Shown: piece by piece, positions 4,572-49,010 of the stretch
Layout: every line of letters begins with the position of its first letter
How positions within the stretch are numbered: the first letter of the stretch is position 1
Source of the DNA: Paenibacillus crassostreae
GTDB lineage: Bacteria; Bacillota; Bacilli; Paenibacillales; Paenibacillaceae
DNA: 64,000 nucleotides
Reading direction: 5' to 3'
Assembly: GCF_001857945.1 (NCBI RefSeq)
Contig: NZ_CP017770.1
Coordinates: 2,790,001-2,854,000 of the forward strand
Translations under genes and position numbers: made by a program
The notes under the pieces: model-generated
Database searches by the model: none
What the model saw: only the letters and a program-made list of their open reading frames with translations
What the model was told of the DNA's origin: nothing

Positions 4572-4584
4572 AGGAAGTGATACA

Positions 4585-5673
4585 TTGTCTAAGATAAGGG
4601 TACTTGTTGCAGATGATTCGGTGTTTATGCGTAGTTTAATTTCACGATTGATTGCAGAGGATGCAGCACTTGAAGTTATCGGTGTTGCTCGAAATGGAAT
4701 GGAAGCCATTCGTAAGGTGCGAGAGCTCAAGCCAGATGTTGTGACTATGGACATCGAAATGCCAGAGATGAATGGTCTAGATGCACTGATGAAGATTATG
4801 GAACAACGTCCAACCCCTATCATTATGCTCAGTTCGCTAACACAGAAAGGGTCGTCTGCAACAATTACTGCATTGCAGAATGGTGCAGTAGATTTCATAT
4901 CAAAGCCGTCAGGTTCGGATTCCTTTGATCTATTCAAGGTGAAGAATGATCTGATATCCAAAATCAAGCAAGCTGCACAAATTCCACTTAAAAATCTTAT
5001 ACGAAGTAATATAACGATTCCAAAAGTAGACTTAGCAAGGAAAGGGAAACCGCAGACTGGATTGCCGCAGATCGGAACGACGAGGGGATTCGATCAGATT
5101 CTAGCACTAGGTACATCAACAGGTGGACCTAAGGCATTGGAGACTGTGATTACAGCCTTACCTGCAAGTTTCTCATATCCGTTACTAGTCGTTCAGCATA
5201 TGCCACCCAAGTTCACGAAGTCGTTGGCGGATCGGTTAAATCGCTTATCCGAGGTTCAGGTTGTTGAGGCGGAAGATAACCAACTTGTGTTAGGGGGGAC
5301 GGTCTATATAGCTCCTGGGGATTACCACATGACCACTGTTCAGAAGAACAAGGAAATCAGAATTAAACTTCATCAGGGTCCAGAGGTGAGCGGGCATCGT
5401 CCATCGGTAGATGTGCTGTTTGACTCCATATCTCAATTAAAGAACCACAAACGACACTTTATTATTATGACTGGTATGGGTAGTGATGGAGCGAAGGGGA
5501 TGTTGTCTGCCAAAGAAGCGGGCGCACAATCAACGATTGTGGAATCGCAAGAGTCCTGCATTGTATATGGTATGCCTAAGTCAGCCATTGCGTTGGGATG
5601 TGTAGACTATACGATTCCATTGCATCTGATCACGTCCAAAATATTGAAAGTGACTGGTGCATTGAAGTCATAG
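4585..5673 (+). CDS. cheB: CheB protein-glutamate methylesterase/deamidase
   Basis: CheB demethylates and deamidates receptors for adaptation (362 residues). The N-terminal receiver domain has acidic residues in VLVADDS, the phospho-Asp in VVTMDIEMPEMNG and the Lys in ISKPSG. After a linker comes the methylesterase domain with catalytic Ser in GTSTGGPKALE, His in VVQHMPPKFT and Asp in TGMGSDGAKG. I chose the TTG at 4585, six bases after GAGGAAGTG, because it yields the family-typical N-terminus SKIRVLVADDS; an ATG at 4540 would overlap cheA and add an unrelated leader. No cheR is visible inside the window; it could lie upstream. Confidence 0.92.
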   Translation: MSKIRVLVADDSVFMRSLISRLIAEDAALEVIGVARNGMEAIRKVRELKPDVVTMDIEMPEMNGLDALMKIMEQRPTPIIMLSSLTQKGSSATITALQNGAVDFISKPSGSDSFDLFKVKNDLISKIKQAAQIPLKNLIRSNITIPKVDLARKGKPQTGLPQIGTTRGFDQILALGTSTGGPKALETVITALPASFSYPLLVVQHMPPKFTKSLADRLNRLSEVQVVEAEDNQLVLGGTVYIAPGDYHMTTVQKNKEIRIKLHQGPEVSGHRPSVDVLFDSISQLKNHKRHFIIMTGMGSDGAKGMLSAKEAGAQSTIVESQESCIVYGMPKSAIALGCVDYTIPLHLITSKILKVTGALKS

Positions 5674-33606: not shown

Positions 33607-34575
33607 ATGACAAGCATTAAAGATGTAGCTAACTTAGCTGGCGTCGCTGTGGGAACCGTGTCCAGAGTCATTAACAACTCTGGTGCTGTAAAACCCAATA
33701 CACGCAGAAAAGTGGAGGAAGCCATACAAGAACTGAATTATTTCCCTAATGAAGTTGCACGAAATTTCAAGATGCAGAAATCTAAGATGGTAGCTTTGTT
33801 GCTTCCAAGCATTTGGAATCCTTTCTTTTCTGAATTGGCTTATTACATTGAGGATGAATTGGAACGGGAAGACTTTAAGCTTATGCTATGCAATAGCGGC
33901 GGCAAACCCGAAAAGGAACTATATTATCTGGATATGCTTCGGCAAAACAAAGTGGCAGGTATTGTTGGCATAACTTACAATGATATTGAGAATAATATAA
34001 GCAACGACATTCCGATGGTAAGTATCGACAGACACTTTAACAAGACAATCACCTGCGTGACTTCGGATAATTATGAGGGAGGACGGCTAGCTTTAAGGGA
34101 ACTTGTAAAAGCAGGAGCTCGGAAACCAGCTTTTATAGGAAGCGTTACTTCCGTTTTCAGTGAAACTATGAATCGGAGAAAAGGATTCATTCATGAGGCA
34201 CAAACTATGGGGGTCGATTATGTAATCTACGAGAAGCCGGACCCCATTGAGGATGATAATGCCTTTTTTAACGAGTTCCTAAATGAGCATGGCGATGTGG
34301 ATGGCATATTTGCTATTACTGATATGTTAGCCGCCAACTATATAGATAGAGCACGAAGGCAGGGCATTCGTGTTCCAGAGGATGTAAAGGTCATCGGTTA
34401 TGACGGCATTCAGGATAATCCCTATTTTCATCCTATATTATCAACGATCAGGCAGCCAGTGGAAGAGATGGCACGCATGACAATCAGACTACTCTTTAAC
34501 AAGATCGAAGGCATAACCTTAGATAAGCAAGTATATCGTATTCCTGTTCTATTCAGACAAGGTGAAACTACATGA
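33607..34575 (+). CDS. LacI-family regulator of the fructan locus
   Basis: A 322-residue repressor. The N-terminal helix-turn-helix IKDVANLAGVAVGTVSRVIN and hinge helix (NYFPNEVARNF) are canonical, followed by a periplasmic-binding-protein-like effector domain (about 60-320) with ALLLPSIWNPFFSELAYYIE, GIFAITDMLAAN and VIGYDGIQDNP. It lies just downstream of two TTGAAACGTTTCCAA operators and upstream of two more before the ABC genes, so it very likely controls itself and the fructan operon. The inducer is probably a fructose-containing sugar; that is inferred from the neighbouring GH32 genes. CGGAGG precedes the ATG. Confidence 0.9.
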   Translation: MTSIKDVANLAGVAVGTVSRVINNSGAVKPNTRRKVEEAIQELNYFPNEVARNFKMQKSKMVALLLPSIWNPFFSELAYYIEDELEREDFKLMLCNSGGKPEKELYYLDMLRQNKVAGIVGITYNDIENNISNDIPMVSIDRHFNKTITCVTSDNYEGGRLALRELVKAGARKPAFIGSVTSVFSETMNRRKGFIHEAQTMGVDYVIYEKPDPIEDDNAFFNEFLNEHGDVDGIFAITDMLAANYIDRARRQGIRVPEDVKVIGYDGIQDNPYFHPILSTIRQPVEEMARMTIRLLFNKIEGITLDKQVYRIPVLFRQGETT

Positions 34576-34659: not shown

Positions 34660-34766
34660 CTTGGAGTTAAGAACGCTTTATAACGACTGTTATACATTGA
34701 AAAACATCAGTTCATTCGGTTGATTCATGGTATAAATCTATCAACTGGTGTTTTTCTTATATTAAA

Positions 34767-34781
34767 TTGGAAACGTTTCAA
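34767..34781. promoter_or_regulatory. LacI-type operator O4
   Basis: TTGGAAACGTTTCAA, 122 bp after O3 and 38 bp before the permease start codon. It lies within the upstream-open frame of the permease, which argues for the later GTG start. Confidence 0.8.
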
Positions 34782-34818
34782 AATGGTTAATTACTTTTAC
34801 ATGAAAGGGAGTATAAGA

Positions 34819-35769
34819 GTGAAATCAAGAACTAACGGGGCGGATCATTCCATGATCAAACCAAATCAAAAAAGATGGAGTCGAGTCAAACGTGACTATG
34901 AACTGTATCTGTTTTTGCTGCCGATCATAATTCTTTATCTTGTATTTAGGTATTATCCGATGTATGGGGTGCAAATTGCTTTTAAGGATTTTTCACCAAG
35001 TCAGGGGATCTGGGGAAGTGAATGGGTAGGATTCCAGCATTTCATAGATTTTTTTAATTCCTATAACTTCTGGCCAATCATTACGAACACGCTTTCACTC
35101 AGTTTTCTTTCGTTGTTGTTTGGTTTCCCGGCTCCAATCATCATCGCAATTATGTTGAATCAGATGCTGGGTAAGAAATACAAGAAATTTGTGCAGACAG
35201 TGATTTATGCACCGCACTTTATATCTACCGTTGTACTTGTCGGAATGCTTAATATATTTTTGTCTCCAAACAGTGGAATTGTGAATCATGTTATCACCTT
35301 GTTCGGAGGAGATCCCATTCTGTTTATGGCCGATGAAGGTTGGTTCCGTCCTTTGTATATATTATCAGGAATTTGGCAAGAAACAGGATTCGCCACCATT
35401 ATTTACCTCGCTGCTCTTGCCGGGGTCAATCCTGAACTTCATGAAGCTGCAACGGTGGATGGAGCGAGCAAATGGAAGCGTGTATGGTATGTGGATATTC
35501 CAAGTATTTTGCCGACGATCGTTATCTTGCTGATTCTCGCACTCGGCAACATTATGAGCATCGGGTTCGAAAAGGCGTTTCTTATGCAAAGTGATTTGAA
35601 TTATGCGACCTCTAATATTATTCCGACCTATGTGTACGAAATGGGGATTCAGAAGGCTCAATACAGCTTTTCTACGGCAGTCGGTCTGTTTAATTCATTT
35701 ATCAATGTTATCCTGATTTTCACCGTCAACCGAATCGCTAAAAAGATGACAGAAACCAGTCTGTGGTAA
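34819..35769 (+). CDS. ABC sugar importer permease, LplB type
   Basis: One of two membrane subunits of an oligosaccharide importer (316 residues from GTG 34819; AAAGGGAG upstream). Six membrane helices are evident, starting with LYLFLLPIIILYLVF. The cytoplasmic EAA loop that contacts the ATPase is ELHEAATVDGASKWKRVWYV. This LplB family pairs with YtcP-type permeases and large LipO-type binding proteins in Paenibacillus, and uses a shared MsmX-like ATPase encoded elsewhere, which explains why no ATPase gene is present. The frame is open from 34720, but that leader covers operator O4. First gene of the fructan transport operon. Confidence 0.9.
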   Translation: MKSRTNGADHSMIKPNQKRWSRVKRDYELYLFLLPIIILYLVFRYYPMYGVQIAFKDFSPSQGIWGSEWVGFQHFIDFFNSYNFWPIITNTLSLSFLSLLFGFPAPIIIAIMLNQMLGKKYKKFVQTVIYAPHFISTVVLVGMLNIFLSPNSGIVNHVITLFGGDPILFMADEGWFRPLYILSGIWQETGFATIIYLAALAGVNPELHEAATVDGASKWKRVWYVDIPSILPTIVILLILALGNIMSIGFEKAFLMQSDLNYATSNIIPTYVYEMGIQKAQYSFSTAVGLFNSFINVILIFTVNRIAKKMTETSLW

Positions 35770-35782
35770 GGAGGAGTTCATT

Positions 35783-36679
35783 TTGAATCAATTATTGAAA
35801 AGAAAGAGCAGAGGAGACGCATGGTTTGACATCATCAACTATATTCTGTTGACCATAATTATGCTGCTCGTATTATTCCCGTTGTACTTTGTACTGATTG
35901 CATCATTCAGTGATCCTAATTATATCTACTCAGGTGAGGTCTGGTTGTTTCCGAAAGGCTTCACGTTGGATGGTTATGAGCGGATTTTTGGTGATTCATC
36001 CATATGGATAGGATATGCCAATTCGATTTTATACGCGACTCTGGGAACATTAATTGGAGTAGCCGTGACTGTTTTTGCTGCTTACCCGTTAGCTCGTAGA
36101 AATTTGGTAGGTAAATCTGCAATTATGTGGTTTTTGCTAGTTACGATGTTTTTTAGTGGGGGGCTGATCCCAACCTATTTGCTGATTAAGGATCTCCATA
36201 TGCTGAATACGATCTGGGCGCTTGTTATTCCTGGAGCAGGCGGTGTATTCAATGTCATTATCGTAAGAACATTTTTTCAATCGTCTATACCGGACGAAAT
36301 GTGGGAAGCGGCATCTATTGATGGATGTTCCAACACCAGATTCTTCTGGAGCATCGTCCTGCCTTTGTCCAAGTCCATCCTGGCTGTAATGGTGCTATAT
36401 CATGTTGTCGGCTTTTGGAATGGTTTCTTCGACGCTTTGATCTATCTGAACGATGAAAGCAAGTATCCGCTACAATTGGTGCTTCGCAACATTCTTGTAC
36501 AGAATCAGGTCAACTCCGGCATGATGATCGATGTGGAATCCTACGCTGCGAAAATGCGCGTTACAGAACTGATCAAATACGGTGTCATCATGGTATCCAG
36601 TCTGCCACTGTTGATTTTGTATCCTTTCCTTCAGAAGTATTTTGTTAAAGGCGTGATGATCGGCTCGATCAAGGGTTGA
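35783..36679 (+). CDS. ABC sugar importer permease, YtcP type
   Basis: The second permease subunit (298 residues; TTG start after AAGGAGGAG, 13 bp after the first permease). Six membrane segments, first at about 20-40 (IILLTIIMLLVLFPLYFVL-type hydrophobic run). The EAA loop reads DEMWEAASIDGCSNTRFFW, and the C-terminus ends in the family-typical FLQKYFVKGVMIGSIKG. It should form a heterodimer with the LplB-type subunit. Substrate specificity is set by the binding protein encoded next; operon context indicates fructo-oligosaccharides. Confidence 0.9.
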   Translation: MNQLLKRKSRGDAWFDIINYILLTIIMLLVLFPLYFVLIASFSDPNYIYSGEVWLFPKGFTLDGYERIFGDSSIWIGYANSILYATLGTLIGVAVTVFAAYPLARRNLVGKSAIMWFLLVTMFFSGGLIPTYLLIKDLHMLNTIWALVIPGAGGVFNVIIVRTFFQSSIPDEMWEAASIDGCSNTRFFWSIVLPLSKSILAVMVLYHVVGFWNGFFDALIYLNDESKYPLQLVLRNILVQNQVNSGMMIDVESYAAKMRVTELIKYGVIMVSSLPLLILYPFLQKYFVKGVMIGSIKG

Positions 36680-36787: not shown

Positions 36788-38413
36788 ATGAAATCAGTAT
36801 TCAAAAATGCAGGGATTGTTGTGTTAGCTGGAACGTTTGTGCTTAGCGGTTGTTCGGGAAATGGTAACGGGTCAACAAATCAGGCAAATAGCCCAGATCA
36901 AGAGGCAAATTTCAACAAAACCGGTCTTCCGATTGTTAACGAAGCAGTGTCATTAACAATGGTATCTCCGAAAGCTGCATTGGCTCCCGAGTACTCGGAA
37001 ATGGAAATCTTCAAACGGCTGGAAAAGGATACTAATGTGGAGATCAACTGGGAGAATATCCCTGACACCGATTATGTAGAAAAGAAAAACTTGTTACTCG
37101 CTAGCGGAGATTTACCGGATGCATTTTACGGAGCTGGATTTACCGATTACGAGTTAATCAATTACGGTAAAGACGGAACCATTATCCCACTGGAGGATTT
37201 AATTGATCAATATGCTCCTAACTTGAAAGCGCTTCTCGAACGTCGACCTGACATCAAATCATCGATTACGGCGCCTGATGGACACATCTATGGGCTACCG
37301 TCTTGGGAAGATAATAATCTTGGAACCAACCCCTTCTTTCACGTCATCAATAAAAGCTGGCTTGATAAGCTTGGTCTGAAAATGCCAGAAACACTGGATG
37401 AATACACGGAAGCACTACTTGCCTTTAAAACGCAGGATCCGAATGGCAATGGTAAGCAAGATGAAATCCCATTAAGCTTTATGCACATGCAATGGTGTAT
37501 GGATATTGCAGGAATTTTCGGAGCATTTGGACTTCCGGATAACCTGGAGCATCGAGTAGTTCGCGATGGAAAGGTTATTTTTACCGCTATTCAACCTGAA
37601 TATAAGGAAGCCTTGAATTATTTCCATGAAAAATGGTATAAGCAGGGACTAATTGATCCAGAATCCTTCACGCAGGACGCAGCACAGTATCTGGCCAAAG
37701 GCAAAACGACTGATGAGACGCTGGGATCTTATATCTGGTGGGAAGTCGAAGAGGTTGTCGGGACTGAGCGCGGTAAGGATTATGCTCTATTGTCTCCGCT
37801 GAAAGGACCAAATGGAGATCAAACGATTGGACGTTCCAATGGTGGTGGTCCGGGACGTGGGGCCTTTGTAATTACAAAAGAAAATACTAACCCAGATATC
37901 ACAATGCGTTGGATCGATGAGCAGTATGAACCTTACATGGCCGCTCAAATCCATTGGGGTCCACTGGACATCGTATATGAGAAAGACGAAAATGGGAAAT
38001 TGGTGAACTTACCGCTTCCTGAGGGAACTTCTGCAGGTGAGTTCCGTCAAAAGGTTGCTCCAGGTTCAGGCGGACCTGGCGTCATTACTTTTGAGGACTT
38101 CGGGAAAGTTGTAGATATGGAGCCACGGGCCCAACAGCGCGCTGAGGATTTAGAAGAATATTACAATGCATACATGGAAAAGGAAAACTATCCAAGTATC
38201 TTCTTTGAGCCAGAGGAATTAGACAAAATCAATAAGATTGAGCCAGAACTCATTAAATATGTTAACACCCAAAGAGGGAAGTTTATTGTTGATGGCGGCG
38301 CAGATGAACAATGGGACAACTATGTGAAGACACTGGAAAAGATGGGCTTAAACGAAATAATGGAGATTTATCAAACTGGACTGGATCGTTATAATGCAAA
38401 TCTGAAAAAATAA
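36788..38413 (+). CDS. Extracellular sugar-binding lipoprotein of the fructan importer
   Basis: A 541-residue substrate-binding lipoprotein. The signal peptide ends in a lipobox, VLSGCSGNG, so Cys 22 or so is lipid-anchored to the outer membrane face, followed by an Asn/Ser-rich linker. The body is a type-1 extracellular solute-binding protein with EMEIFKRLEKDTNVEINWENIP at the start and YVEKKNLLLASGDLPDAFYG, features of the LipO/YtcQ group. It delivers oligosaccharides to the two permeases encoded upstream. AAAGGGAGG precedes the ATG. The next gene encodes the fructokinase-GH32 fusion, which suggests a fructan-derived ligand. Confidence 0.9.
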   Translation: MKSVFKNAGIVVLAGTFVLSGCSGNGNGSTNQANSPDQEANFNKTGLPIVNEAVSLTMVSPKAALAPEYSEMEIFKRLEKDTNVEINWENIPDTDYVEKKNLLLASGDLPDAFYGAGFTDYELINYGKDGTIIPLEDLIDQYAPNLKALLERRPDIKSSITAPDGHIYGLPSWEDNNLGTNPFFHVINKSWLDKLGLKMPETLDEYTEALLAFKTQDPNGNGKQDEIPLSFMHMQWCMDIAGIFGAFGLPDNLEHRVVRDGKVIFTAIQPEYKEALNYFHEKWYKQGLIDPESFTQDAAQYLAKGKTTDETLGSYIWWEVEEVVGTERGKDYALLSPLKGPNGDQTIGRSNGGGPGRGAFVITKENTNPDITMRWIDEQYEPYMAAQIHWGPLDIVYEKDENGKLVNLPLPEGTSAGEFRQKVAPGSGGPGVITFEDFGKVVDMEPRAQQRAEDLEEYYNAYMEKENYPSIFFEPEELDKINKIEPELIKYVNTQRGKFIVDGGADEQWDNYVKTLEKMGLNEIMEIYQTGLDRYNANLKK

Positions 38414-38441: not shown

Positions 38442-40910
38442 GTGCTTGATGTTATTGCTATCGGGGAAGTATTGATAGACTTTACTCCAGCGGGTCGCAC
38501 AGCTGGGGGAAACGAGCAATTTGAATGCAATCCCGGAGGAGCTCCGGCTAATGTAGCAGCTGCGTTAGCTCGATTAGGAGCCAGCTCAGCATTGATTAGC
38601 AAGATTGGGGAGGACCAATTCGGTACATTACTGCATAACACACTACTTAGCAGTGGTGTTGATGTGTCTGACGTTTCTTTTACCAATGAAGCGAGTACAA
38701 CGTTGGCATTTGTTCATCTAGATGACAAAGGAGACAGGTCCTTCAGTTTCTTTCGAAAGCCGGGAGCGGATACCCTCTTACACTCAAAGGATGTCCCACT
38801 CGATCGGATTGAAACTTGCCAGGCTCTACATTTTGGCTCGTTGTCCATGACCCATGAACCGGCTCGTACGGCAACAAAGACGGCAGTTCTTAAGGCAAAG
38901 GAAGCAGGAGTGTTGCTCTCATTCGATCCCAATATACGGTTTGCGTTATGGGAGAGCAAGGAGGCAGCAAAGCAGAATATTCTCTGGGGTATGAAGTATG
39001 TAGATATTTTGAAAATATCAGAAGAAGAGCTTTTCTTTATTACAGGTACCAGTGATGTGGAGCAGGGATCACTAGAGTTGCAACAACAATTCAGTATCGT
39101 GTTGATCGTCGTTACTTTAGCAGAAAAAGGCTGCTACTACCGTCTGGCTGGTCAGGATGGATATGTTCCGGGGTTTCAAGTGAAGACCATCGACACGACC
39201 GGAGCCGGGGATGCTTTTCTGGGATGCTTGTTGTATAAGATCCTGGAAACGGGAAGTTCTTTGAATGATCTGACCAGCCAGCAAATCGTTAGCATGCTGA
39301 CTTTTGCTAATGCCGGCGGGGCGTTAGTAACAACACGAAAGGGGGCTCTTGGATCTATGCCCACAACATATGAGATTAACCAAATGATAGAGTCCAATAA
39401 ACAGAACAATGATGAGCGTTTCAGACCGGGGTTTCATTTTTCACCTCCATCCCATTGGTTGAATGATCCGAACGGATTAGTATTTTACGAGGGAAGCTAT
39501 CATCTATTCTATCAGTACCATCCTTACAGCAATAAATGGGGACCGATGCACTGGGGTCATGCAGTAAGTAAGGATCTGGTTCATTGGAAGCATATGCCGA
39601 TCGCTCTGTTCCCTGATGAACATGGAGCCATATTCTCCGGTTGTTGTGTGGTGGACTGGAACAATAGCAGCGGATTGTTCGAAGGTTCCCATGGATTGAT
39701 CGCGCTCTTTACCCATGCGGATACATGTCCAGAGTCTGGACAGCCACGCCAGCGGCAGAGTTTGGCTTACAGTCGTGATGCAGGACACACCTGGCACAAA
39801 TATGAGGGGAATCCTGTCCTCGCTGAGGATGAGCTGCTTGACTTCCGGGACCCGAAGGTATTCTGGCATCCACAAAGCGAGAATTGGATTATGGTTATTG
39901 TTGCGGGTGACCATACCCGGTTTTACCGGTCCAAAAATCTGCGTGAATGGTCGTTAACTGGTGAATTCGGTAAAGGAGAGGGTTCGCATGACGGAGTTTG
40001 GGAATGCCCTGATCTGTTTGAATTGCCGATTGATGAGACCGGGCGTTCTAAATGGGTACTGATCATAAGCATCGGGGATAATCCCAACTGTCCGGAAGGA
40101 TCACGTACGCAATATTTTATTGGAGAGTTCGACGGAAATACTTTCATTAATGACAATCCGGCCGACCATATCATGTGGCTGGATTATGGTAGAGACAACT
40201 ATGCGGGAGTGAGCTGGTCGGATATACCTGAGCAAGACGGACGCCGTGTGATCATCGGGTGGATGAGTAACTGGAAGTATGCCAATGAGACACCTACGGG
40301 TTCGTGGAGAGGTGCCATGACTCTACCTCGTGCCTTGTCACTGACTAACAGAAATGGTGGAGTGATTTTGACTCAAATGCCTGTCCGAGAAATAGAACAG
40401 CTGCGTAAAGAATCAATGAGCTGGAATGACGTTGCTGTTACGCCAGAGACCCCCTTTATGCAGAAGATGAACGAAGACCTGCTGGAGATTGAAGCAGATA
40501 TCGATGTTCGGTCCGGTGAAGAGGTTCATATTGGATTGAAATCCTCTGGGCAGAGCGAGATTGTTATTGGATATGACCCTGAACACCAATGGCTATTCAT
40601 TGACCGTTCCAAATCGGGTGTGACGGATTTTCACCCATCGTTTGCTACCAAGCACGGTGCTGGAATGGTTGCGGTGAATGGAAAGATCAAGCTGCATATC
40701 TGGCTGGACCGCAATGCGGTTGAAGTGTATGCGGATAATGGCCTAGTTGTACTGACGGATCAAATTTTCCCTGACGCTCCGATTGAGGAAGTTGGGATAA
40801 GCACGCAATCAGGGCAGGTTGTACTGGATTCGCTTCAGATCTATACTCTTAAATCTATTCATATTCCAGCCTGTACAACAGAGCAGACTGCAGGGAGGAA
40901 TGATGCATGA
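38442..40910 (+). CDS. Fructokinase-GH32 beta-fructofuranosidase fusion
   Basis: A single 822-residue chain with two complete enzymes. Residues 1-325 form a PfkB-family sugar kinase: DVIAIGEVLIDFTP, NPGGAPANVAAALARLG, and the catalytic/anion-hole motif DTTGAGDAFLG (Asp near 256). Residues 330-815 form GH32: nucleophile in SHWLNDPNGLVF (Asp near 342), transition-state Asp in DFRDPKVFW and acid/base Glu in VWECPDLFEL, then the C-terminal beta-sandwich. No signal peptide, so it acts in the cytoplasm: GH32 would release fructose from imported oligosaccharides and the kinase would phosphorylate it. The frame is unbroken through the junction. GTG start after GGTGGAGAG; the stop overlaps the next gene by four bases. 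Confidence 0.9.
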   Translation: MLDVIAIGEVLIDFTPAGRTAGGNEQFECNPGGAPANVAAALARLGASSALISKIGEDQFGTLLHNTLLSSGVDVSDVSFTNEASTTLAFVHLDDKGDRSFSFFRKPGADTLLHSKDVPLDRIETCQALHFGSLSMTHEPARTATKTAVLKAKEAGVLLSFDPNIRFALWESKEAAKQNILWGMKYVDILKISEEELFFITGTSDVEQGSLELQQQFSIVLIVVTLAEKGCYYRLAGQDGYVPGFQVKTIDTTGAGDAFLGCLLYKILETGSSLNDLTSQQIVSMLTFANAGGALVTTRKGALGSMPTTYEINQMIESNKQNNDERFRPGFHFSPPSHWLNDPNGLVFYEGSYHLFYQYHPYSNKWGPMHWGHAVSKDLVHWKHMPIALFPDEHGAIFSGCCVVDWNNSSGLFEGSHGLIALFTHADTCPESGQPRQRQSLAYSRDAGHTWHKYEGNPVLAEDELLDFRDPKVFWHPQSENWIMVIVAGDHTRFYRSKNLREWSLTGEFGKGEGSHDGVWECPDLFELPIDETGRSKWVLIISIGDNPNCPEGSRTQYFIGEFDGNTFINDNPADHIMWLDYGRDNYAGVSWSDIPEQDGRRVIIGWMSNWKYANETPTGSWRGAMTLPRALSLTNRNGGVILTQMPVREIEQLRKESMSWNDVAVTPETPFMQKMNEDLLEIEADIDVRSGEEVHIGLKSSGQSEIVIGYDPEHQWLFIDRSKSGVTDFHPSFATKHGAGMVAVNGKIKLHIWLDRNAVEVYADNGLVVLTDQIFPDAPIEEVGISTQSGQVVLDSLQIYTLKSIHIPACTTEQTAGRNDA

Positions 40911-41593
40911 GCCATACAACGGATGACCGAGGATTAATGATGCATTGGGATTTTGATGAAGGAACCGGAGCAAACGCTCTGGAGAGTGTATCCCAAGTCC
41001 GGGATGATATTCAGTACGTATTTAATCAAGCGGAGTTTACCGAACGGTCTGGTCCGCAATGGAGACAGGGAGTAACGGGAAGCGGTCTTCTGTTTGACGG
41101 TTACTCAACTGCTATTGCCCATCAGGTCAATAAGGGAGACACGAACAACGCTCCGGAATTTCGATCAGCACTAACTATAGGAGTGTGGGTAGCACCACGC
41201 TTTTATGATTGGGGCTATGAAGGTAAGTTGGCTGCCATTGTAAACCGCCACAATATGGAGCGCAAGCAGGGTTATCTGCTTGGCATGTTCCGACACGGCA
41301 GCTGGTCCTTCCAAGTTGGGCTCGAAGAAGGGGGCTGGAAGGGAATTTGGTCACCGAATGGCTACGAGCTTCCAAAGAATGAATGGTCTTACGTAAACTG
41401 TGTATTCGATGGGAATCAAGGCGAACTCAAGCTGTACTTGAACGGCTGTGAAATTGCTTCGTCTGCCGTGCCTTGCGGTTCACGGCTTGCCGAGGCAGTG
41501 GGCACGGATCTGCTCATTGGCAAGAATAATCACAGCAGCCTGTGGGGGAAGTATTCAACCTCCAGATGTATAGCGGTATCATCGATGAACTGA
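40907..41593 (+). pseudogene. LamG-GH32 protein, 5' (LamG) part upstream of a frameshift
   Basis: The first 228 codons of a gene whose frame is broken at a run of five Gs (41544-41548). The product is a LamG/concanavalin A-like domain (MMHWDFDEGTG, GSGLLFDGYSTAIA, LTIGVWVAPRFYDWGYEGKL, LKLYLNGCEIASS, LLIGKNNHSS), close to residues ~555-795 of the giant SLH enzyme downstream. After the G run this frame gives 16 non-homologous residues and stops, while the other frame continues the homology. Adding one G would give one ORF of about 759 residues with the following part. There is no signal peptide. It starts at ATG 40907 (AGGGAGGA upstream), overlapping the fusion-gene stop. Confidence 0.8.
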
Positions 41594-43185
41594 AGATGTA
41601 TAACCGGGCCTTAAGTGCAGAGGAAGTTGCCGCTTCATATCAGCATGTGCTGGAATCCGCACATGGAGGCGTTAAGCCTCAAGTGCAATATGATGAGATC
41701 AAGCTGGATCGGACACCTCTGTTGCTGGATCGGCATAGACCGCAGTATCATGTCAGCCCCCCCGCTCATTGGATGAACGAACCTCATGCGCCGATCTATT
41801 TTGACGGGCAATATCATTTGTTCTATCAGCATAACCCGTTAGGGCCGTTCTTTTATCAGATCCATTGGGGACATTGGGTAAGTAAGGATCTAGTGCATTG
41901 GCGTGATCTTCCCGTGGCCTTGGCACCTGAAAAGGACCAGCTTGCACCTGACGGGATCTGGTCGGGAAGCGCAACTTATGATGCAGACGGTCTGCCTGTC
42001 TTGTTCTTTACGGCGGGTAATGACAGTGTTTCGCCGAATCAGAGCGTGGCACTTGCCCGGAGCACTTATTCCGAGAATGGAGACCCGGATTTGGTTCAAT
42101 GGGTCAAACATCCGGAACCGCTCATCGTACAGGAGAAGGGAATGGGCGCATTCGGGGATTTCCGCGATCCGTTCGTATGGAAGGACGATGACGGCTGGTA
42201 TGCTCTAGTTGGATCGGGGATTGAAGGCGAAGGTGGAGCAGCATTAGCATTTGAGTCACAGGATATGCTGAATTGGACGTACAAAGGACCATTTTATCAA
42301 GCGGATATTCAGAAATTCCCCTATCTTGGACCTATCTGGGAGCTTCCTGTACTTCTTCCGCTTGGCATCGACAACCAGGGTGAGAACAAGCATCTACTGC
42401 TAGTCAGTCCCGTGGGAAAAGGGGCTGATGTCGAAGTATTCTATTGGATAGGACGACTTGATAAACACAATCTTTCGTTCATACCAGATCAAGAGGAGCC
42501 GGAACTGATTGACGTCGGTGATTTCCATTTTACCGGCCCAAGCGGAATGGTGGATCCAAAGACTGGCAGAAAGATCATATTTACAATTGCCCAAGGAGAC
42601 CGGACGTCCGAGCTCGAATATCAATCGGGTTGGGCTCATAACGGCGGCTTGCCGCTAAGCGTATATTTAAGGGGTGACGGACGGCTGGGAATCGAGCCGA
42701 TTCAGGAACTTCAATCCCTGCGCGGTGCTAAGCAGCTATCGTTCCATGACAAGTCATTGACTGAGGCTAATGTATTGCTAAGGGATGTTCAAGGTGACAT
42801 GCTTGAAATTCAAGTGGAACTGGAACCGGGTGGTGCCACACAACTCGGAATCAAGGTCCGGTGTACACCGGATGGAGAAGAGGAAACTCTGTTGTATTAT
42901 GATTTGAATGAAGCTAAACTCTTGGTGGATCGGACAAAAACGACACAACATCCGGGAGAAAAGTGCAGTGGAGTTCAGGGTGGTAAGCTGGATCTGCTAG
43001 GGGAGAATCTGAAGCTTCACATCTATTTGGATCGCTCAATGGTCGAAGCCTATGCCAATGGTTTGAAAAGTTTGACGACCCGAGTCTATCCGAGCCGTAA
43101 GGACGCCTTGGGGCTAGAGCTCTGGGGAGATGGAGAGCTCGTTGTTAAAACTATGGAAGTATGGAATATGCAGTCCATTTGGTAG
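41542..43185 (+). pseudogene. LamG-GH32 protein, 3' (GH32) part downstream of a frameshift
   Basis: The continuation of the preceding LamG part in the -1 frame; the first residues (VFNLQMYSGIIDELKMYNRAL) complete the LamG domain. The GH32 domain follows (about 517 residues). The nucleophile motif is HWMNEPHAPIYFDG instead of WMNDPNG, while FRDPFVW and the acid/base Glu (IWELPVLLPLG, replacing ECPD) remain. The GTG at 41542 lacks a ribosome binding site, so separate translation is unlikely. The domain is most similar to the GH32 part of the SLH enzyme at 43374-49010. A true mutation, a sequencing error in the G run, or slippage could explain the break. Confidence 0.8.
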
Positions 43186-43210
43186 AGAAGCGCTTAGGCG
43201 CTTCTTATCA
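43186..43210 (+). terminator. Weak terminator after the LamG-GH32 gene
   Basis: AGAAGCGC and GCGCTTCT form a perfect 8 bp stem around TTAG directly after the stop codon; only a short T-containing tail follows, so termination may be partial. Confidence 0.55.
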
Positions 43211-43252
43211 TATGGATAATGAAACAAACACCTCAAGCAAGTAAACCCTCAA

Positions 43253-43268
43253 TTGAAAGCGCTTTATT
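43253..43268. promoter_or_regulatory. Possible catabolite-responsive (cre-like) or LacI-family site
   Basis: TTGAAAGCGCTTTATT, with palindromic core AAAGCGCTTT, about 105 bp before the SLH-GH32 start. It resembles the CcpA cre consensus with mismatches at its right end and differs from the TTGGAAACGTTTCAA operators. Confidence 0.4.
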
Positions 43269-43373
43269 ATACCTTCCCTCTTACAAAATAAATATGCATC
43301 TTGGTAGGTGAGCAATTTCCAAATGAAGTAGCAATGTTTGCATGAATAAGAAATGATGAAGGAGGCTCGTTTC

Positions 43374-46300
43374 ATGATGGAAGCCAAAAAAAGTAAATCA
43401 TGGATCTCCAGTATGGTTGTATTGGTTATGGCTCTTCAGCTTGTGGCTCCAGGAATCTCGGTATCAGCCGAAGCCAGAGTTGAAGTTGGGGAAGCTTCTA
43501 TTCCAAAGGCGGACATGGAATTGTCAGTTACGGATGCGGTCTATCAGATTCAGAATCCAGGCTTCGAAACAGGGGATATGTCAGGATGGACGGTTGTCAG
43601 AGGCGAAGCGTTCGGTCAGGACAGCGTATCGGATGAATCCACATGGTGGGCGGAACAAATACCGTACAACCAGGAAGACAGTTATCATTTAAACGGCTGG
43701 AAGCATGATGAAGCTGCTACAGGTGTTCTTCGATCCACCACCTTCGAGCTGGGCGGTAGCGGCTGGATCAGCTTCAAGCTTGGCGGTGCAAAAAATCCTA
43801 ACAAGATATATGTAAATGTCGTGGAAGCCAATACGGGGCAAAGTATTGCGAGGTACGGCAACAGCGCATTCGCCGACGTTGGCTTCCCGAATCCCGATCA
43901 GGGCTTGCGGCTTGCTAATATGGAGCAGTATAAGGCGGATCTTTCTGAATATATGGGTAAGAAGCTGTATGTGGAGATCGTCGATAATGCAACCTCGGAT
44001 TGGGGGGTAATATTTGCGGACGCCTTCCTCATGTACCATCCATCCGAACCGGTTAAAGGAATTTTCGCCACGGATATCAAGCCGGATTTCAAACGCTATC
44101 AAATCGAAAATCCCAGCTTTGAAACCGGAGATTTAACAGGATGGACGGTAGTGGAAGGCGAAGCGTTTGGTACGAATAGTGTATCGGACGAAACAACCTG
44201 GTGGGCAGAACAAATCCCGTACAACCAGGAAGGCATTTATCATTTAAACGGCTGGAAGTATGCTGAAGCCGCGACCGGCGTACTTCGTTCCAGCACCTTC
44301 GAGCTTGGAGGAACTGGTTGGATCACCTTCAGACTGGGCGGAGGCAAGCATACGGATCAAGTGTACGTGAGCGTCATTGATGCGGATACGGGAGACTTGA
44401 TTGCCAGGTACGGAAATACCGAATTTAACGAGTCCGCGTTCCCGGATCCGGCACAGGGATTGAGACTCGCGAACATGGAACAGTATAAAGCCGATCTTTC
44501 CAAGTATATCGGAAAGAAACTATATCTAGAGATCGTCGATAATGGGACCGTGGATTGGGGGGTAATATTTGCGGACGCCTTCAACACCTTTAATGAACTT
44601 GTACCAGAAGAAGGGGTTATGGCGGATAATATTTTGCCGACCGAAATGCAGAATCCTGGTTTTGAAACCGGAAACTTCGATGCTTGGATCGTTGATGGTA
44701 ATGCTTTTCAAGTAACCGATGAAGCTCAATCCGGTAAAGAAGGTAACTTTTATGCCAAGTCTTCCTTAGAGGGACAGGGCTCGATTACCTCGGGTATCTT
44801 CACGCTTCAAGGAACCGGGACGATTAACTTCACTGTTGTAGGTATCGACAATCCGGAGGACGCCTACGTCGCGCTATATGATGCCAGCACTAACGCGTTG
44901 ATGAAGAAGACCGATGACATCAGTGCAAATGAGGAAATTTCCTTGAGAATGCAGGAACACTACAATAAGAAGCTTTATATCAAGGTTATCGATCAATCCA
45001 ATCAAGCCAGTATTTCCGTTGATGCTTTTCAATCTGATGCTGTGGGTAACATATTCTACATGAATTTTGATGAAGGCACAGGCAAGAAGGCATTTGAGGA
45101 AGTAAGCAATCTTGAGCACGATGTGAATTATGTATTTAATAGCGCTAGATATATGGCTTCTAAAGACCCAAGATGGACTCCGCGCGGAGTAAAAGGTGGC
45201 GCCTTGCTGTTCGATGGTTACTCGAATGATATCGAGATCAATGCAAAGAATACTATTCCAGTACGTGACGCGTTAACGCTTGAAGCTTGGGTCGCGCCGC
45301 GCAGCTACGAATGGGGAGACGGAAACAAGCTATCAACAATCGTGAGCCAGTCCAATCAGGATAAAGCGGAAGGCTTCGAGCTTGGCATGTACCGGCACGG
45401 CACATGGTCGATGCAGGTCGGAATTGGCGGCAAGTGGATTCAAGTGTGGGTTAAAGATCATCCACTAGAAAAATACAAATGGAATTATGTGGCTGCTACC
45501 TTCGACAAGAAGCATGGCATGATTAAATTGTACTTGAACGGTGAGGAAATAGCTTCCCAAGCTACCCCTGTCGATATTCCGATTACACCATCTACCGAAG
45601 GTTTGATAATCGGTAAAAATAATAAACCCGTAGAGTTGGCAGGTTTGTTCTCATACAATATGTTCAGCGGACTTATAGATGAAGTAAAACTGCAAAACAT
45701 AGCCCTTACAAGTCAGGAGATCCTTGCTGAATATGAGAATGTGAAAACTCTTCATGACGGCTCGATTCCAGAAATTCCAAATGGTGATATTGATGAAGAC
45801 CCAAGTGTGCTTGATGGAGATCAGCACCGTCCCCAGTATCACGCAATGCCACCGCAAAACTGGATGAATGAGGCGCATGCACCGATTTATTATAACGGCA
45901 ACTACCATTTGTTTTATCAGCATAACCCGCAAGGTCCATACTGGCATCAAATCCATTGGGGACATTGGGTTAGTGACGATATGGTTCACTGGGAAAATGT
46001 ACGGCCTGCTCTTGCCCCCGAAGCGGGTGACCTTGATCCGGACGGAGCATGGTCAGGCAGTGCAGCGTATGATCGCGATGGCAATCCGGTACTTTTCTAT
46101 ACTGCTGGCAATGACTCCTTGTCACCGAACCAAAGAACCGGGCTGGCAACTCCAGCCGATTTGTCGGATCCCAATTTAGAGCAATGGGTGAAATATTCCA
46201 AACCGGTAACGGAGCAGAATGGCAATGGCATCCATAACGAGTTTCGTGATCCATTCGTATGGTACGACGAAGAGGTGGATAAGTGGTATCAGTTAGTGAC

Positions 46301-49010
46301 GTCCGGCCTTCAAGACTTCAGCAGCGGCACAGCTTTGGTGTATGTATCCGACGATATGTACAACTGGGAGTATAAGGGGCCTTTATTTGTTAGTGACAGA
46401 AGCCTCTATCCGGAGCTCGGTACGGTATGGGAACTGCCGGTATTACTACCGTTAGGCAAGGATAGTACGGGCAAGCAAAAGTATATTTTTATGGTTAATC
46501 CTCATGAAAAGCCGGAGCATGTTGCTCCAGCTAACGATGTGCAAAGAGATGTTGAGGTTTTTTACTGGATTGGAACATGGGACCGCGATAACTTCAAATT
46601 TATACCTGATCAGGAGGCACCCTCCAAAATGGATGTAGGCGATGGTTATTTAACCGCAGAGAGCGGTATGGTCACACCTGATGGAAGAACGGTCGTCTAC
46701 TCCATGGTGCAGAATGTAAGAACACCACAGGCTGAATATCAAGCCGGATGGGCTCATAATCTGGCATTGCCAGTTTCCCTAAGTCTGGATGATCATGATG
46801 AATTGCGCATTGAGCCGATTCAAGAATTGCAGAGTCTACGAAGTACTAAACTGGTTGATTTTGCAGACAAAAATCTACAGACTGCCAATCAATTGATCCA
46901 AAATGTCAAAGGCGACATGTTGGAGATTGTGATGGAAATTGATCCAGGTGAAGCCCAGAAATTCGGTCTCAAGGTGCGACGCTCCGATAACGGCCAAGAA
47001 GCAACACTGATTTACTACGATAAGACAGACGAGACCTTCAACGTGGATCGGACCAAGAGCAGTATTGATCCGGATGTGCGTGTGGATGGTATTCAAGGCG
47101 GGTACGTCGATCTTGACGGAGAGAATCTGAAGCTTCATATTTTCCTCGACCGTTCGGTAGTTGAAGCTTTTGCCAATGATAAGAAAAAGCTGACAACTCG
47201 CGTCTACGTAGGCCGATACGATTCTTTAGGCTTGAAGATCTGGGCTGACAAAGATATTACGGTCAAGTCGATGGAAGTATGGAATATGAATGCCTTGACG
47301 GGTGAACCGGCTACTCCGGTCTATGTTCCAGATAACTGGGACAACTCGGTGTATACCGATATTACGGATCTGCCTAATCATGATTTTGCTACAGGTGATT
47401 TAACAGGCTGGATAGCGGAAGGAGATGCCTTCAAGGATGTCCATGTGACCAATGCCCAGCTTTTCTGGGATACGATATATTTCAATCCGTCGCAAAAAAT
47501 TCCAGGTGGCTATCATTTGTGGGGCTTCAACGAAGCAGCCGGTGGTGACAGCTCAACGGGAACGCTAAAATCACAGAATTTTGTCCTTGGCGGGAACGGT
47601 AAGATCAACTTCCTTGTCAGTGGCGGACGTGATATGGATAAGCTGTATGTTGCGCTGGTTCGGGCATCGGACGGCAAGGAGTTATTTAAAGAGATAGCAA
47701 CCAATTATGAGGAATATCAACGGAAGAATTGGAATGCGTCGCAGTATATCGGTGAAGAGCTTTACATTAAGGTGGTTGACCAATCCACAGGCGGTTTTGG
47801 ACATATTAACGTCGATGATTTCAACGTACCGGTTAAGGTGCAGAATCCGACCAATCCAAGCTATCCGCCTGCTCCAACCAACCCTGTCAATACGGACAGC
47901 CTCGTGAGCAATGGGGTTACCCCAAGCAAACCGAACAGTCAGAACAGCCTGTCATTCGAAATGGCAAAAGGAGAACGGCAGGTGCTGTTTCCGGTTAAAA
48001 CGGCAGCAAATGATGGCAAGAACGCTTTAAAAATTAAACATAGCGGAGCAGAGATCGAAGTTCCTGCTGAGGTATTAAAGGATTTGGAAGGGCTGGTTAC
48101 AAGAGACGAACTTGAACGCGCCCAAATCTCCTTTGAAATAGACACATTATCAGCAGATCAGATTAAAGAACTAATGGAACGTGTCGAAAGCAAGAATAAA
48201 GCAGACATATCCGCTTTAGGAGAGGTCTATACCTTCAAATTATCTATTCTGAAAGCTGATGGAACGGTACTTCAGCTTGAGAACTTCTCCAAACCAGTCA
48301 CCATTAGGATGAGTGTAAATGAGAATTCTCGCCATGCTCTGGCTGGGATCTATTACATCGCCGATGACGGCAGCCTGAAGTATGCGGGCGGAACGTATGC
48401 AAGCGATATGATCACTGCGGAAGTGAGCCATTTCAGTATGTATTCCATCCTTAACTATGACAAATCGTTTAATGATGTTAATGCATCGTATTGGGCTCAT
48501 GACGTGATTAAGAAGATGGCTGCGAAACAAATTGTTCTCGGTGTAAGCGACACGGCATTTGCACCAAAGCAAAACGTGACCAGAGCTGAGTTTGTCTCGA
48601 TTATTAGCCGGGCACTGGGAATAAAGGCCGCGAACACAACTACATTCAAGGATGTTGATCCAACGAAATGGTACGCTTCTTCCATTGCCGCTGCATTCGA
48701 AGCGGGAATCATAAACGGTAGAAGCATGGATAAATTCGCACCAGAGGAAACCATAAGCCGTGAAGAAATGGCGGTCGTGATTCTTAATATTTATCAATTC
48801 CAGACAGGGCAGAAGGCTCTAGCAGAAGGAAAGAACAATTTTAAAGATGCCGACGCGGTCAGCTCCTGGGCTACAGATGAGGTCTCTGCTGCACAGGAGC
48901 TTGGCCTAACTAACGGCCGCGGCAATGAATTATTCATGCCTCAAGGAAAAGTGAATCGTGCAGAAAGTGCACAAATCGTCTCGAAATTGCTCGACAAGAT
49001 CAATAAATAA
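43374..49010 (+). CDS. SLH-anchored multidomain GH32 fructan-active enzyme
   Basis: A 1,878-residue surface enzyme (ATG 43374 after AAGGAGG; an earlier ATG at 43353 lacks a site). Order: signal peptide (about 1-38), two near-identical ~184-residue carbohydrate-binding-like modules (about 57-235, 241-415; NPGFETGDMSGWTVV), a diverged third (about 424-555), a LamG domain (about 557-790), GH32 (about 815-1305), a fourth diverged module (about 1330-1490), a Pro/Asn linker, a beta-rich domain (about 1515-1690) and three SLH domains (about 1698-1878). The GH32 nucleophile motif reads NWMNEAHAPIYYNG (Glu, not Asp); FRDPFVW and VWELPVLLPLG are kept. It probably hydrolyses or transglycosylates inulin or levan at the cell surface and feeds the adjacent importer. 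Exact reaction unknown. Confidence 0.85.
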   Translation: MMEAKKSKSWISSMVVLVMALQLVAPGISVSAEARVEVGEASIPKADMELSVTDAVYQIQNPGFETGDMSGWTVVRGEAFGQDSVSDESTWWAEQIPYNQEDSYHLNGWKHDEAATGVLRSTTFELGGSGWISFKLGGAKNPNKIYVNVVEANTGQSIARYGNSAFADVGFPNPDQGLRLANMEQYKADLSEYMGKKLYVEIVDNATSDWGVIFADAFLMYHPSEPVKGIFATDIKPDFKRYQIENPSFETGDLTGWTVVEGEAFGTNSVSDETTWWAEQIPYNQEGIYHLNGWKYAEAATGVLRSSTFELGGTGWITFRLGGGKHTDQVYVSVIDADTGDLIARYGNTEFNESAFPDPAQGLRLANMEQYKADLSKYIGKKLYLEIVDNGTVDWGVIFADAFNTFNELVPEEGVMADNILPTEMQNPGFETGNFDAWIVDGNAFQVTDEAQSGKEGNFYAKSSLEGQGSITSGIFTLQGTGTINFTVVGIDNPEDAYVALYDASTNALMKKTDDISANEEISLRMQEHYNKKLYIKVIDQSNQASISVDAFQSDAVGNIFYMNFDEGTGKKAFEEVSNLEHDVNYVFNSARYMASKDPRWTPRGVKGGALLFDGYSNDIEINAKNTIPVRDALTLEAWVAPRSYEWGDGNKLSTIVSQSNQDKAEGFELGMYRHGTWSMQVGIGGKWIQVWVKDHPLEKYKWNYVAATFDKKHGMIKLYLNGEEIASQATPVDIPITPSTEGLIIGKNNKPVELAGLFSYNMFSGLIDEVKLQNIALTSQEILAEYENVKTLHDGSIPEIPNGDIDEDPSVLDGDQHRPQYHAMPPQNWMNEAHAPIYYNGNYHLFYQHNPQGPYWHQIHWGHWVSDDMVHWENVRPALAPEAGDLDPDGAWSGSAAYDRDGNPVLFYTAGNDSLSPNQRTGLATPADLSDPNLEQWVKYSKPVTEQNGNGIHNEFRDPFVWYDEEVDKWYQLVTSGLQDFSSGTALVYVSDDMYNWEYKGPLFVSDRSLYPELGTVWELPVLLPLGKDSTGKQKYIFMVNPHEKPEHVAPANDVQRDVEVFYWIGTWDRDNFKFIPDQEAPSKMDVGDGYLTAESGMVTPDGRTVVYSMVQNVRTPQAEYQAGWAHNLALPVSLSLDDHDELRIEPIQELQSLRSTKLVDFADKNLQTANQLIQNVKGDMLEIVMEIDPGEAQKFGLKVRRSDNGQEATLIYYDKTDETFNVDRTKSSIDPDVRVDGIQGGYVDLDGENLKLHIFLDRSVVEAFANDKKKLTTRVYVGRYDSLGLKIWADKDITVKSMEVWNMNALTGEPATPVYVPDNWDNSVYTDITDLPNHDFATGDLTGWIAEGDAFKDVHVTNAQLFWDTIYFNPSQKIPGGYHLWGFNEAAGGDSSTGTLKSQNFVLGGNGKINFLVSGGRDMDKLYVALVRASDGKELFKEIATNYEEYQRKNWNASQYIGEELYIKVVDQSTGGFGHINVDDFNVPVKVQNPTNPSYPPAPTNPVNTDSLVSNGVTPSKPNSQNSLSFEMAKGERQVLFPVKTAANDGKNALKIKHSGAEIEVPAEVLKDLEGLVTRDELERAQISFEIDTLSADQIKELMERVESKNKADISALGEVYTFKLSILKADGTVLQLENFSKPVTIRMSVNENSRHALAGIYYIADDGSLKYAGGTYASDMITAEVSHFSMYSILNYDKSFNDVNASYWAHDVIKKMAAKQIVLGVSDTAFAPKQNVTRAEFVSIISRALGIKAANTTTFKDVDPTKWYASSIAAAFEAGIINGRSMDKFAPEETISREEMAVVILNIYQFQTGQKALAEGKNNFKDADAVSSWATDEVSAAQELGLTNGRGNELFMPQGKVNRAESAQIVSKLLDKINK
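43545..44590 (+). repeat. Intragenic tandem duplication (~552 bp period)
   Basis: Two adjacent modules within the SLH-GH32 gene (about 43545-44040 and 44098-44590) are similar at DNA level, with runs such as TATCATTTAAACGGCTGGAA and GATTGGGGGGTAATATTTGC identical in both. This indicates recent duplication or gene conversion. Confidence 0.8.

Follow-up and report, generated by a model that had tools for sequence, protein, structure and literature searches.

A branch of glycoside hydrolase family 32 (GH32) carries a glutamate where GH32 enzymes have their nucleophilic aspartate. Two of its members are encoded in the window, the whole 64,000-nucleotide stretch of the Paenibacillus crassostreae genome analyzed here: a short LamG-GH32 enzyme and a long, secreted enzyme with SLH domains. 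GH32 enzymes are described as having in common the aspartate nucleophile of the WMNDPNG motif, which serves as a mark of the family (PMC9741242, PMC6560043). Because the two enzymes have the fold and sequence of GH32 without this mark, they belong to a variant branch of the family and are not ordinary members of it. Judging from the sequences, it is somewhat probable that they represent a LamG-GH32 clade of single origin, with a glutamate nucleophile, concerted changes in the active-site pocket and a cyclofructan-type pathway.

Glutamate occupies the nucleophile position

The initial annotation had proposed that glutamate replaces the nucleophile aspartate in both enzymes and that the other two catalytic acids are kept. 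In an ungapped alignment with eight solved GH32 chains (PDB 7vco, 8i12, 6num, 2aez, 1st8, 3pig, 2qqu and 2ac1), the glutamate indeed falls on the nucleophile aspartate of WMNDPNG. In an alignment of 76 rows, this column holds glutamate in 41/41 glutamate-type rows and aspartate in 35/35 others. The preceding asparagine is common to at least 90% of both groups, and no other aspartate stands in the nucleophile column of the glutamate-type rows. These results leave almost no credence to an alignment or assembly artefact in which a nearby aspartate would be the true nucleophile, and no point supporting it was found. As to whether the glutamate motif occurs in well-characterized, ordinary GH32 enzymes, aspartate was found in all eight solved chains, and the answer covers these eight of the approximately 50 GH32 sequences in the PDB.

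A larger sample came from a contig scan, in which 369 relatives were found and 80 kept. Among 242 aligned domains, 148 scored above 500 bits (127 distinct) and 72 ordinary ones scored 130-300 bits (71 distinct), while 22 fragments or weak matches were left out. Glutamate is found in 127/127 distinct subfamily domains, and aspartate in 71/71 ordinary GH32 domains of the same loci. The stabilizer aspartate (FRDP) and the acid/base glutamate (WELP) are kept in 127/127 subfamily domains each, as had been claimed for the window. The residue after the acid/base glutamate, the cysteine of the canonical ECP motif, is leucine in 126 of them and methionine in one.

One of the two patterns used in the contig scan, [HN]WMNE[PA]H, biases this sample to glutamate. 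As a check on this bias, we read 40 stretches, 38 picked by profile score and two by context. A clade member above 400 bits was present in 38 of the 40; the site was covered in 37 and was glutamate in every case. Locus L244, whose genome had first been found via the glutamate pattern, was then dropped, and 13 of the remaining domains were already among the 127. The score-picked sample thus gives glutamate in 36/36 domains, 23 of them new. The nucleophile site is not covered in L227 (genome G063), and L228, a near miss at 333 bits, is of the aspartate type.

The clade is also well separated by score. In 197 genomes of the same bacterial family, its members reach about 525-1073 bits on one profile (A1), and the other full GH32 domains listed reach at most 286 bits; the exception is a single partial match of 385 bits (G063). 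On a second profile (A2), the best PDB match scores 264 bits (7vco) versus about 600-900 bits for members from Bacillota and haloarchaea, and three outer glutamate-type rows score about 300 bits. No solved GH32 scores as a clade member.

The glutamate is better conserved than the HAP behind it: NEPGG stands for NEPHA in two domains (L045, L075) and in three more of the score-picked sample. The full motif reads WQNEPGG or WGNEPGG instead of WMNEPHA in L045:8652-13457, L075:7507-13416 and L222-L224, which form a further sub-branch. A glutamate-type and an aspartate-type GH32 domain can also share one protein, in either order (L065:2152-8226, L075:7507-13416, L201:12618-16880).

The glutamate clade seems to have a single origin

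In a quick tree of the 76 rows, the 41 glutamate rows fall in one clade (Shimodaira-Hasegawa-like approximate likelihood ratio test, 99). A second, more careful tree, comprising L228 and 48 of the 76 rows (49 in total), was built with the WMNEPHAP, WSGS, FRDPF, WELPVLL and TGPSG columns removed. It again places its 28 glutamate rows in one clade (support 99/93) and requires one Asp/Glu change; some of the sequences in the tree are long or have an unusual composition. Hence, from the sequences, the Asp to Glu swap seems to have arisen once. The initial annotation had taken the two window copies for independent instances of the same change. The single change on the tree and the 57% identity between the short and the long copy indicate that they are paralogues, and rule out an independent origin of the glutamate in each.

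A LamG domain precedes GH32 in both window enzymes, on a separate frame in the short gene. Upstream of the glutamate-type GH32, LamG was found directly before the domain in 37/37 regions (28 loci); an additional domain was excluded because its upstream sequence was too short. It was also present in 7/7 further-scanned glutamate-type proteins, one of them shared with the 37. The closest aspartate-type rows on the tree are L203 (Natronorubrum, WLNDPNG), which has a weak DUF4960 instead of a LamG match, and L198, which has no additional domain. Since LamG is found throughout the clade samples and in neither of these two nearest aspartate-type relatives, the LamG fusion and the glutamate travel together. 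On the Natronorubrum plasmid (L203:1260-3416 and 3426-4757), the weak DUF4960 match lies at the start of this aspartate-type relative, which adjoins a gene annotated as GH68.

Pocket residues that switched with the nucleophile

A column was counted as co-switched if one residue made up at least 90% of 38 glutamate-type rows and a different one at least 75% of 35 aspartate-type rows. Eight columns qualify (positions counted from DRHRPQYH in the short enzyme): D18E, N20H, F78W, L90P, an inserted L122, C206L, F210L and Y269T. The three outer glutamate rows follow this pattern at 18, 20 and 78; they carry methionine at 206 and leucine at 269, and positions 90, 122 and 210 are different or variable in them. 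We take F78 and Y269 to line the fructose site as well, as in invertase structures. In the endo-levanase BT1760, the bottom of the pocket consists of Asp41, Cys222 and Thr104, and Asp41 lies 5.2 Å from Glu221 (PMC6560043). Residues 18 and 206 correspond, by role, to its Asp41 and Cys222.

The GH32 part of the short enzyme was modeled with a mean predicted local distance difference test (pLDDT) of 92. Its fold (Foldseek and VIA-align) matches 7vco (Z 40.9), 1w2t (40.8), a plant invertase and a sucrose:fructan 6-fructosyltransferase (6-SFT) (about 40). These are followed by the endo-inulinase 3sc7 (38.7), the levan fructotransferase 4fff (37.3) and BT1760 (31.6-31.9). Such near-equal Z values do not tell functions apart.

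A changed pocket could also mean a changed mechanism, with the glutamate as general base of an inverting reaction or with otherwise altered stereochemistry. Inversion, however, typically requires the carboxylates to stand further apart. A longer acid would instead narrow the 5.2 Å between nucleophile and acid/base seen in BT1760 (PMC6560043). Family GH97 does mix both outcomes, with a glutamate base in inverting members and a likely aspartate nucleophile in retaining ones (PMC2670981), and several residues of the active-site region switched together here. Overall, we regard altered stereochemistry as improbable.

The GH32 domains are under purifying selection

For the two window GH32 domains compared with three near relatives, the ratio of nonsynonymous to synonymous substitution rates (dN/dS) is 0.043-0.074, which rules out decay of these domains. 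Together with the long-lived clade, this agrees with the proposal of the initial annotation that they form a functional subfamily. The glutamate is fixed in the sample and never replaced by glutamine or alanine, both partner acids are kept and selection is strong. For these reasons, the sequences make it very probable that the glutamate is the catalytic residue of the clade.

The same observations make catalytically dead binding proteins on a GH32 scaffold very improbable. That explanation would draw on the change of a nucleophile that is aspartate in 71/71 ordinary domains, on the LamG and further modules, which suggest binding, and on the frameshift in the short gene of the window. A dead site would hardly keep glutamate every time (again 36/36 in the score-picked sample), never glutamine, asparagine or alanine, with the other acids at 127/127. 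In addition, the GH32 domains are under purifying selection, and the leaderless copy adjoins a kinase gene.

The frameshift itself lies in a G-rich stretch, where the short gene of this assembly is split into two overlapping frames (Table 1). The 760-amino-acid protein of a near relative (L006) matches both pieces in two frames (tblastn). Short forms in relatives are mostly single frames of 748-861 amino acids in the family survey, and about 760 amino acids in near relatives. Other broken short forms are a partial match in G063 (335 amino acids) and one match in G088 (487 amino acids, internal stop). The window frameshift may reflect an error of sequencing, slippage or a genuine break, all three being compatible with a single assembly. 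The enzyme had been described as a leaderless LamG-GH32 protein: by eye, its N-terminus shows no signal peptide, but in this assembly it is encoded by two overlapping frames and not as one protein.

A conserved import-coupled gene set

Both window enzymes exceed the Pfam cut-offs for PF00251 and PF08244, which stand for the five-bladed propeller and the C-terminal sandwich of GH32 (210.5/116.7 and 222.3/113.8 bits). The long enzyme comprises, in order, a signal, N-terminal repeat modules, LamG, GH32, a C-terminal module and three SLH domains; the modules were assigned by eye, with the P. nuruki protein described below as a reference. Upstream lie a regulator, two permeases and the binding protein of an ATP-binding cassette (ABC) importer and a PfkB kinase-GH32 fusion, which places sugar cleavage and phosphorylation on one chain. 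Further upstream, positions 27421-33120 (minus strand) encode a 1899-amino-acid SLH surface protein with metallophosphatase, 5'-nucleotidase C-terminal, choice-of-anchor I and LTD domains.

Table 1 Position in the window of the glutamate-type enzymes, their motifs and the neighboring genes.
Feature	Position	Strand	Evidence or remark
Short LamG-GH32 enzyme, nucleophile motif WMNEPHAP (Glu codon 41779-41781)	41770-41793	+	aligned to WMNDPNG
Short enzyme, FRDPF, stabilizer Asp kept	42160-42174	+	
Short enzyme, WELP, acid/base Glu kept, canonical ECP Cys replaced by Leu	42337-42348	+	
SLH enzyme, nucleophile motif WMNEAHAP (Glu codon 45870-45872)	45861-45884	+	
SLH enzyme, FRDPF	46242-46256	+	
SLH enzyme, WELP	46428-46439	+	
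Short glutamate-type enzyme, N-terminal LamG part	40907-41593	+	Laminin_G_3 3.4e-13; N-terminus MSHTTDDRGLMMHWDF
Short glutamate-type enzyme, GH32 part (propeller and C-terminal sandwich)	41542-43185	+	PF00251 5.5e-62, PF08244 1.3e-33
Frameshift in G-rich stretch, splitting the short LamG-GH32 gene	41545-41551 (approx.)	+	tblastn of L006 protein
Long secreted glutamate-type (SLH) enzyme	43353-49010	+	LamG 1.3e-23, GH32N 1.4e-65, GH32C 1e-32, SLH 1.3e-34
PfkB kinase-GH32 fusion, canonical WLNDPNG at 39456-39476, FRDPK, WECPD	38442-40910	+	PfkB 1.4e-55, GH32N 1.4e-96
Extracellular solute-binding protein of ABC importer	36788-38413	+	SBP_bac_1 1.3e-09
ABC permease	35783-36679	+	BPD_transp_1 6.1e-11
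ABC permease	34720-35769	+	BPD_transp_1 3.6e-18
LacI-family regulator	33607-34575	+	PF00356 7.3e-20

The 80 contig loci, which extend 6 kb beyond the match, contain the short form in 74 cases, the long form in 39 and both in 33. Homologues of the window permeases and of the binding protein are each present in 72/80 (BLAST, >100 bits), an aspartate-type GH32 in 70/80 and PfkB in 46/80. PfkB and GH32 are fused in 34/80; in the other loci, kinase and GH32 are separate neighbors or no PfkB is seen. Under a simple hydrophobicity rule, a hydrophobic N-terminus is lacking in 74/81 short open reading frames and present in 40/42 long ones. This tally excludes L001-L004, L085-L139 and open reading frames off the locus start, and counts a few genes twice. 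The two long-form exceptions are both haloarchaeal, and one is a gene piece. The conserved unit consists of an ABC importer, an ordinary GH32 that is often fused to a kinase, a leaderless short glutamate enzyme and a secreted long one.

In the 197 genomes of the bacterial family, the clade occurs in 43: the long form in 30, the short form in 40, both in 28, the short form only in 12 and the long form only in two. In this tally, copied by hand, the window genome counts as a holder of the short form despite its broken frame, and G063 is in neither class. A 1316-amino-acid GH32 of P. macerans was considered as a long form and ruled out, since its motif is SASDPNG and it lies outside the clade. 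Beside its short glutamate enzyme, P. macerans encodes a 485-amino-acid protein with WRDPFVF and a partial GH32N match (L136:5286-6740, L025:7507-8961).

Outside the family, the clade is seldom seen. Among 398 genomes of the phylum, intact members were found in four (G000, G006, G029, G497) and broken pieces in one (G460); in the order of G497, the clade is present in 2/13 genomes. Among 296 genomes of the Rufibacter phylum, glutamate-type members were seen in two (the centre genome and G616). Motif reading covered the best matches; those left unread in the Rufibacter-phylum search scored at most 113 bits. Locus L200 (G460:C2:184000-196000) contains several GH32 frames, of both glutamate and aspartate type, apparently in pieces. 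WTNEPHG or WTNESHG with WEMP is found in the three outer relatives, of which a single Bacteroidota genome (G616) contributes two and Catenovulum one. For phage GH32, identity is 27-31% in the best eight of 42 phage records.

Two haloarchaeal plasmid records match at about 46% identity (tblastn against plasmids). Haloterrigena turkmenica pHTUR01 and a Natrinema plasmid each carry two ABC permeases, an ATPase, a LamG-GH32 protein, a carbohydrate kinase and a long protein. The LamG-GH32 protein (about 755 amino acids) has WMNEPHAP and no signal by eye. The long protein has LamG, a glutamate-type GH32 (WMNEPHGP) and an ordinary aspartate-type GH32. In Haloterrigena it also has a twin-arginine-like start and ricin-type lectin domains; in Natrinema the long gene is in pieces and the kinase is a short PfkB piece. 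No binding protein is annotated in these stretches and the regulator is TrmB-like, so that the haloarchaeal and bacterial sets are similar, not identical. Four GH32 proteins of H. turkmenica have been predicted to be beta-fructosidases (PMC3102087).

A possible pathway for cyclic fructans

Following the retaining mechanism of GH32, the glutamate carboxylate would attack C2 of fructose, the aspartate of FRDP would stabilize the transition state and the glutamate of WELP would act as acid/base. Less certainly, the secreted long enzyme would cut an inulin-type fructan internally and join the covalently held chain end onto itself. The product might then be taken up by the ABC importer and be opened or endo-cut in the cytoplasm by the leaderless short enzyme, and the ordinary GH32 and the PfkB kinase might finish it to phosphorylated fructose. 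The long form is taken as fructanotransferase-like because the domain plan of the P. nuruki member matches and because cyclic sugars are known to be handled by three-stage pathways. The longer side chain may, as the initial annotation suggested, alter the mechanism or favor transglycosylation. A transglycosylating (cyclizing) role would fit the domain plan of the SLH enzyme and the import-coupled operon. By this analogy, we rate a fructanotransferase-like long form, whose rings the short form would open in the cytoplasm, just under evenly balanced.

The active glutamate enzymes could instead be plain endo-acting fructan hydrolases of the endo-inulinase or endo-levanase type, without cyclic products. 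The set would then serve ordinary fructan use, with depolymerization by the secreted enzyme and an oligosaccharidase in the cytoplasm. Plain fructan catabolism would suit the anchoring by SLH domains, the importer, the ordinary GH32 and the kinase, the model matches the endo-inulinase 3sc7 about as well as exo-enzymes, and the short form stands alone in 12/43 genomes. On the other hand, plain hydrolysis gives no reason for a dedicated leaderless glutamate enzyme beside an aspartate-type GH32 (70/80 loci), and the module plan resembles that of a reported fructanotransferase (PMC10076258). We consider plain endo-hydrolysis rather unlikely.

Several observations weigh against the clade-and-pathway reading as a whole. 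The three outer glutamate rows deviate in the Tyr-to-Thr and Leu-to-Pro columns, so that part of the co-changes did not arrive with the glutamate. The N-terminal modules of the long enzyme were modeled at a pLDDT of only 52, which gives no support for a CBM38 identity. P. macerans MER 50.2 has the short form only, as do the 12 clade genomes mentioned above; hence, the short enzyme needs no partner in the same genome. The short gene of the window is frameshifted, and its LamG part is less constrained (dN/dS 0.12 and 0.24, versus two relatives).

In its fullest form, which remains tentative, the proposal is that a single Asp to Glu swap, made workable by a rebuilt pocket floor, gave a clade for making and opening cyclic fructans. 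Clade and operon together would then be a fructan counterpart of the cyclodextrin glucanotransferase (CGTase)-cyclodextrin pathway in Bacillota, Bacteroidota and haloarchaea. No report of a glutamate nucleophile in GH32 was found in the literature searched, which is weak evidence given a coverage mostly without subscription papers and without key fructanotransferase papers. The strings WMNEPH and WMNEAH were not found there either, a search that does not cover NEPHAP alone. If the fructanotransferase AAG47946 (see below) had the same glutamate, the motif would belong to one characterized, though not ordinary, enzyme type.

A clade with a fixed glutamate and co-changed positions is a natural experiment on how far a glycosidase nucleophile can move. 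The sequence rule also makes it possible to recognize a distinct group of proteins that now bear no other name than 'GH32 C-terminal domain-containing protein'. Should the cyclofructan reading be true, the gene set would represent a whole pathway for cyclic fructans, ring-opening enzyme included.

Comparison with known systems

The enzymes of Frischella perrara (7vco) and Thermotoga maritima (1uyp) share with the clade the full-length fold of propeller and sandwich (Z 40.9 and 40.8), the FRDP aspartate and the acid/base glutamate. The clade differs from them by Asp to Glu, NG to HA, ECP to ELP, FSG to WSG and Tyr to Thr, and by the LamG in front. The levan fructotransferase of Arthrobacter ureafaciens (4fff) shares the GH32 fold with the clade model (Z 37.3). 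Unlike the clade, it has an aspartate nucleophile, going by PDB titles that name a D54N mutant. It is no close relative: 38 other PDB sequences score above its 72 bits on the clade profile. Levan fructotransferase is described as performing intramolecular transfructosylation (PMC8605356).

The cycloinulooligosaccharide fructanotransferase of Paenibacillus (Bacillus) macerans (AAG47946) resembles the long form in its reported domain plan and is likewise a GH32 enzyme from Paenibacillus. The long form of P. nuruki (1344 amino acids) has, by eye, two N-terminal modules, LamG, GH32 and a C-terminal module, and shares 80.5% identity with the window protein across residues 92-1343. AAG47946 is presumably of nearly the same length, at 1333 amino acids. 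It is reported to have a CBM38 at residues 32-389, with two beta sandwiches, and an inulin-binding N-terminus (PMC10076258). Compared with AAG47946, the window long form adds a further copy of the N-terminal module and the SLH domains. Paenibacillus sp. LX16 is reported to make a cyclic hexamer from inulin (PMC4835578), and a Paenibacillus genome to have GH32 entries linked to CBM66 and CBM38 (PMC12643537).

The three-stage pathways described for cyclodextrin, cycloalternan and difructose anhydride III (DFA III) consist of a secreted maker, an importer and a cytoplasmic breaker (PMC8605356). In contrast to these, both enzymes of the candidate set described here come from one GH32 clade. As in these pathways, a secreted enzyme, an importer and a cytoplasmic enzyme are encoded together in the window.

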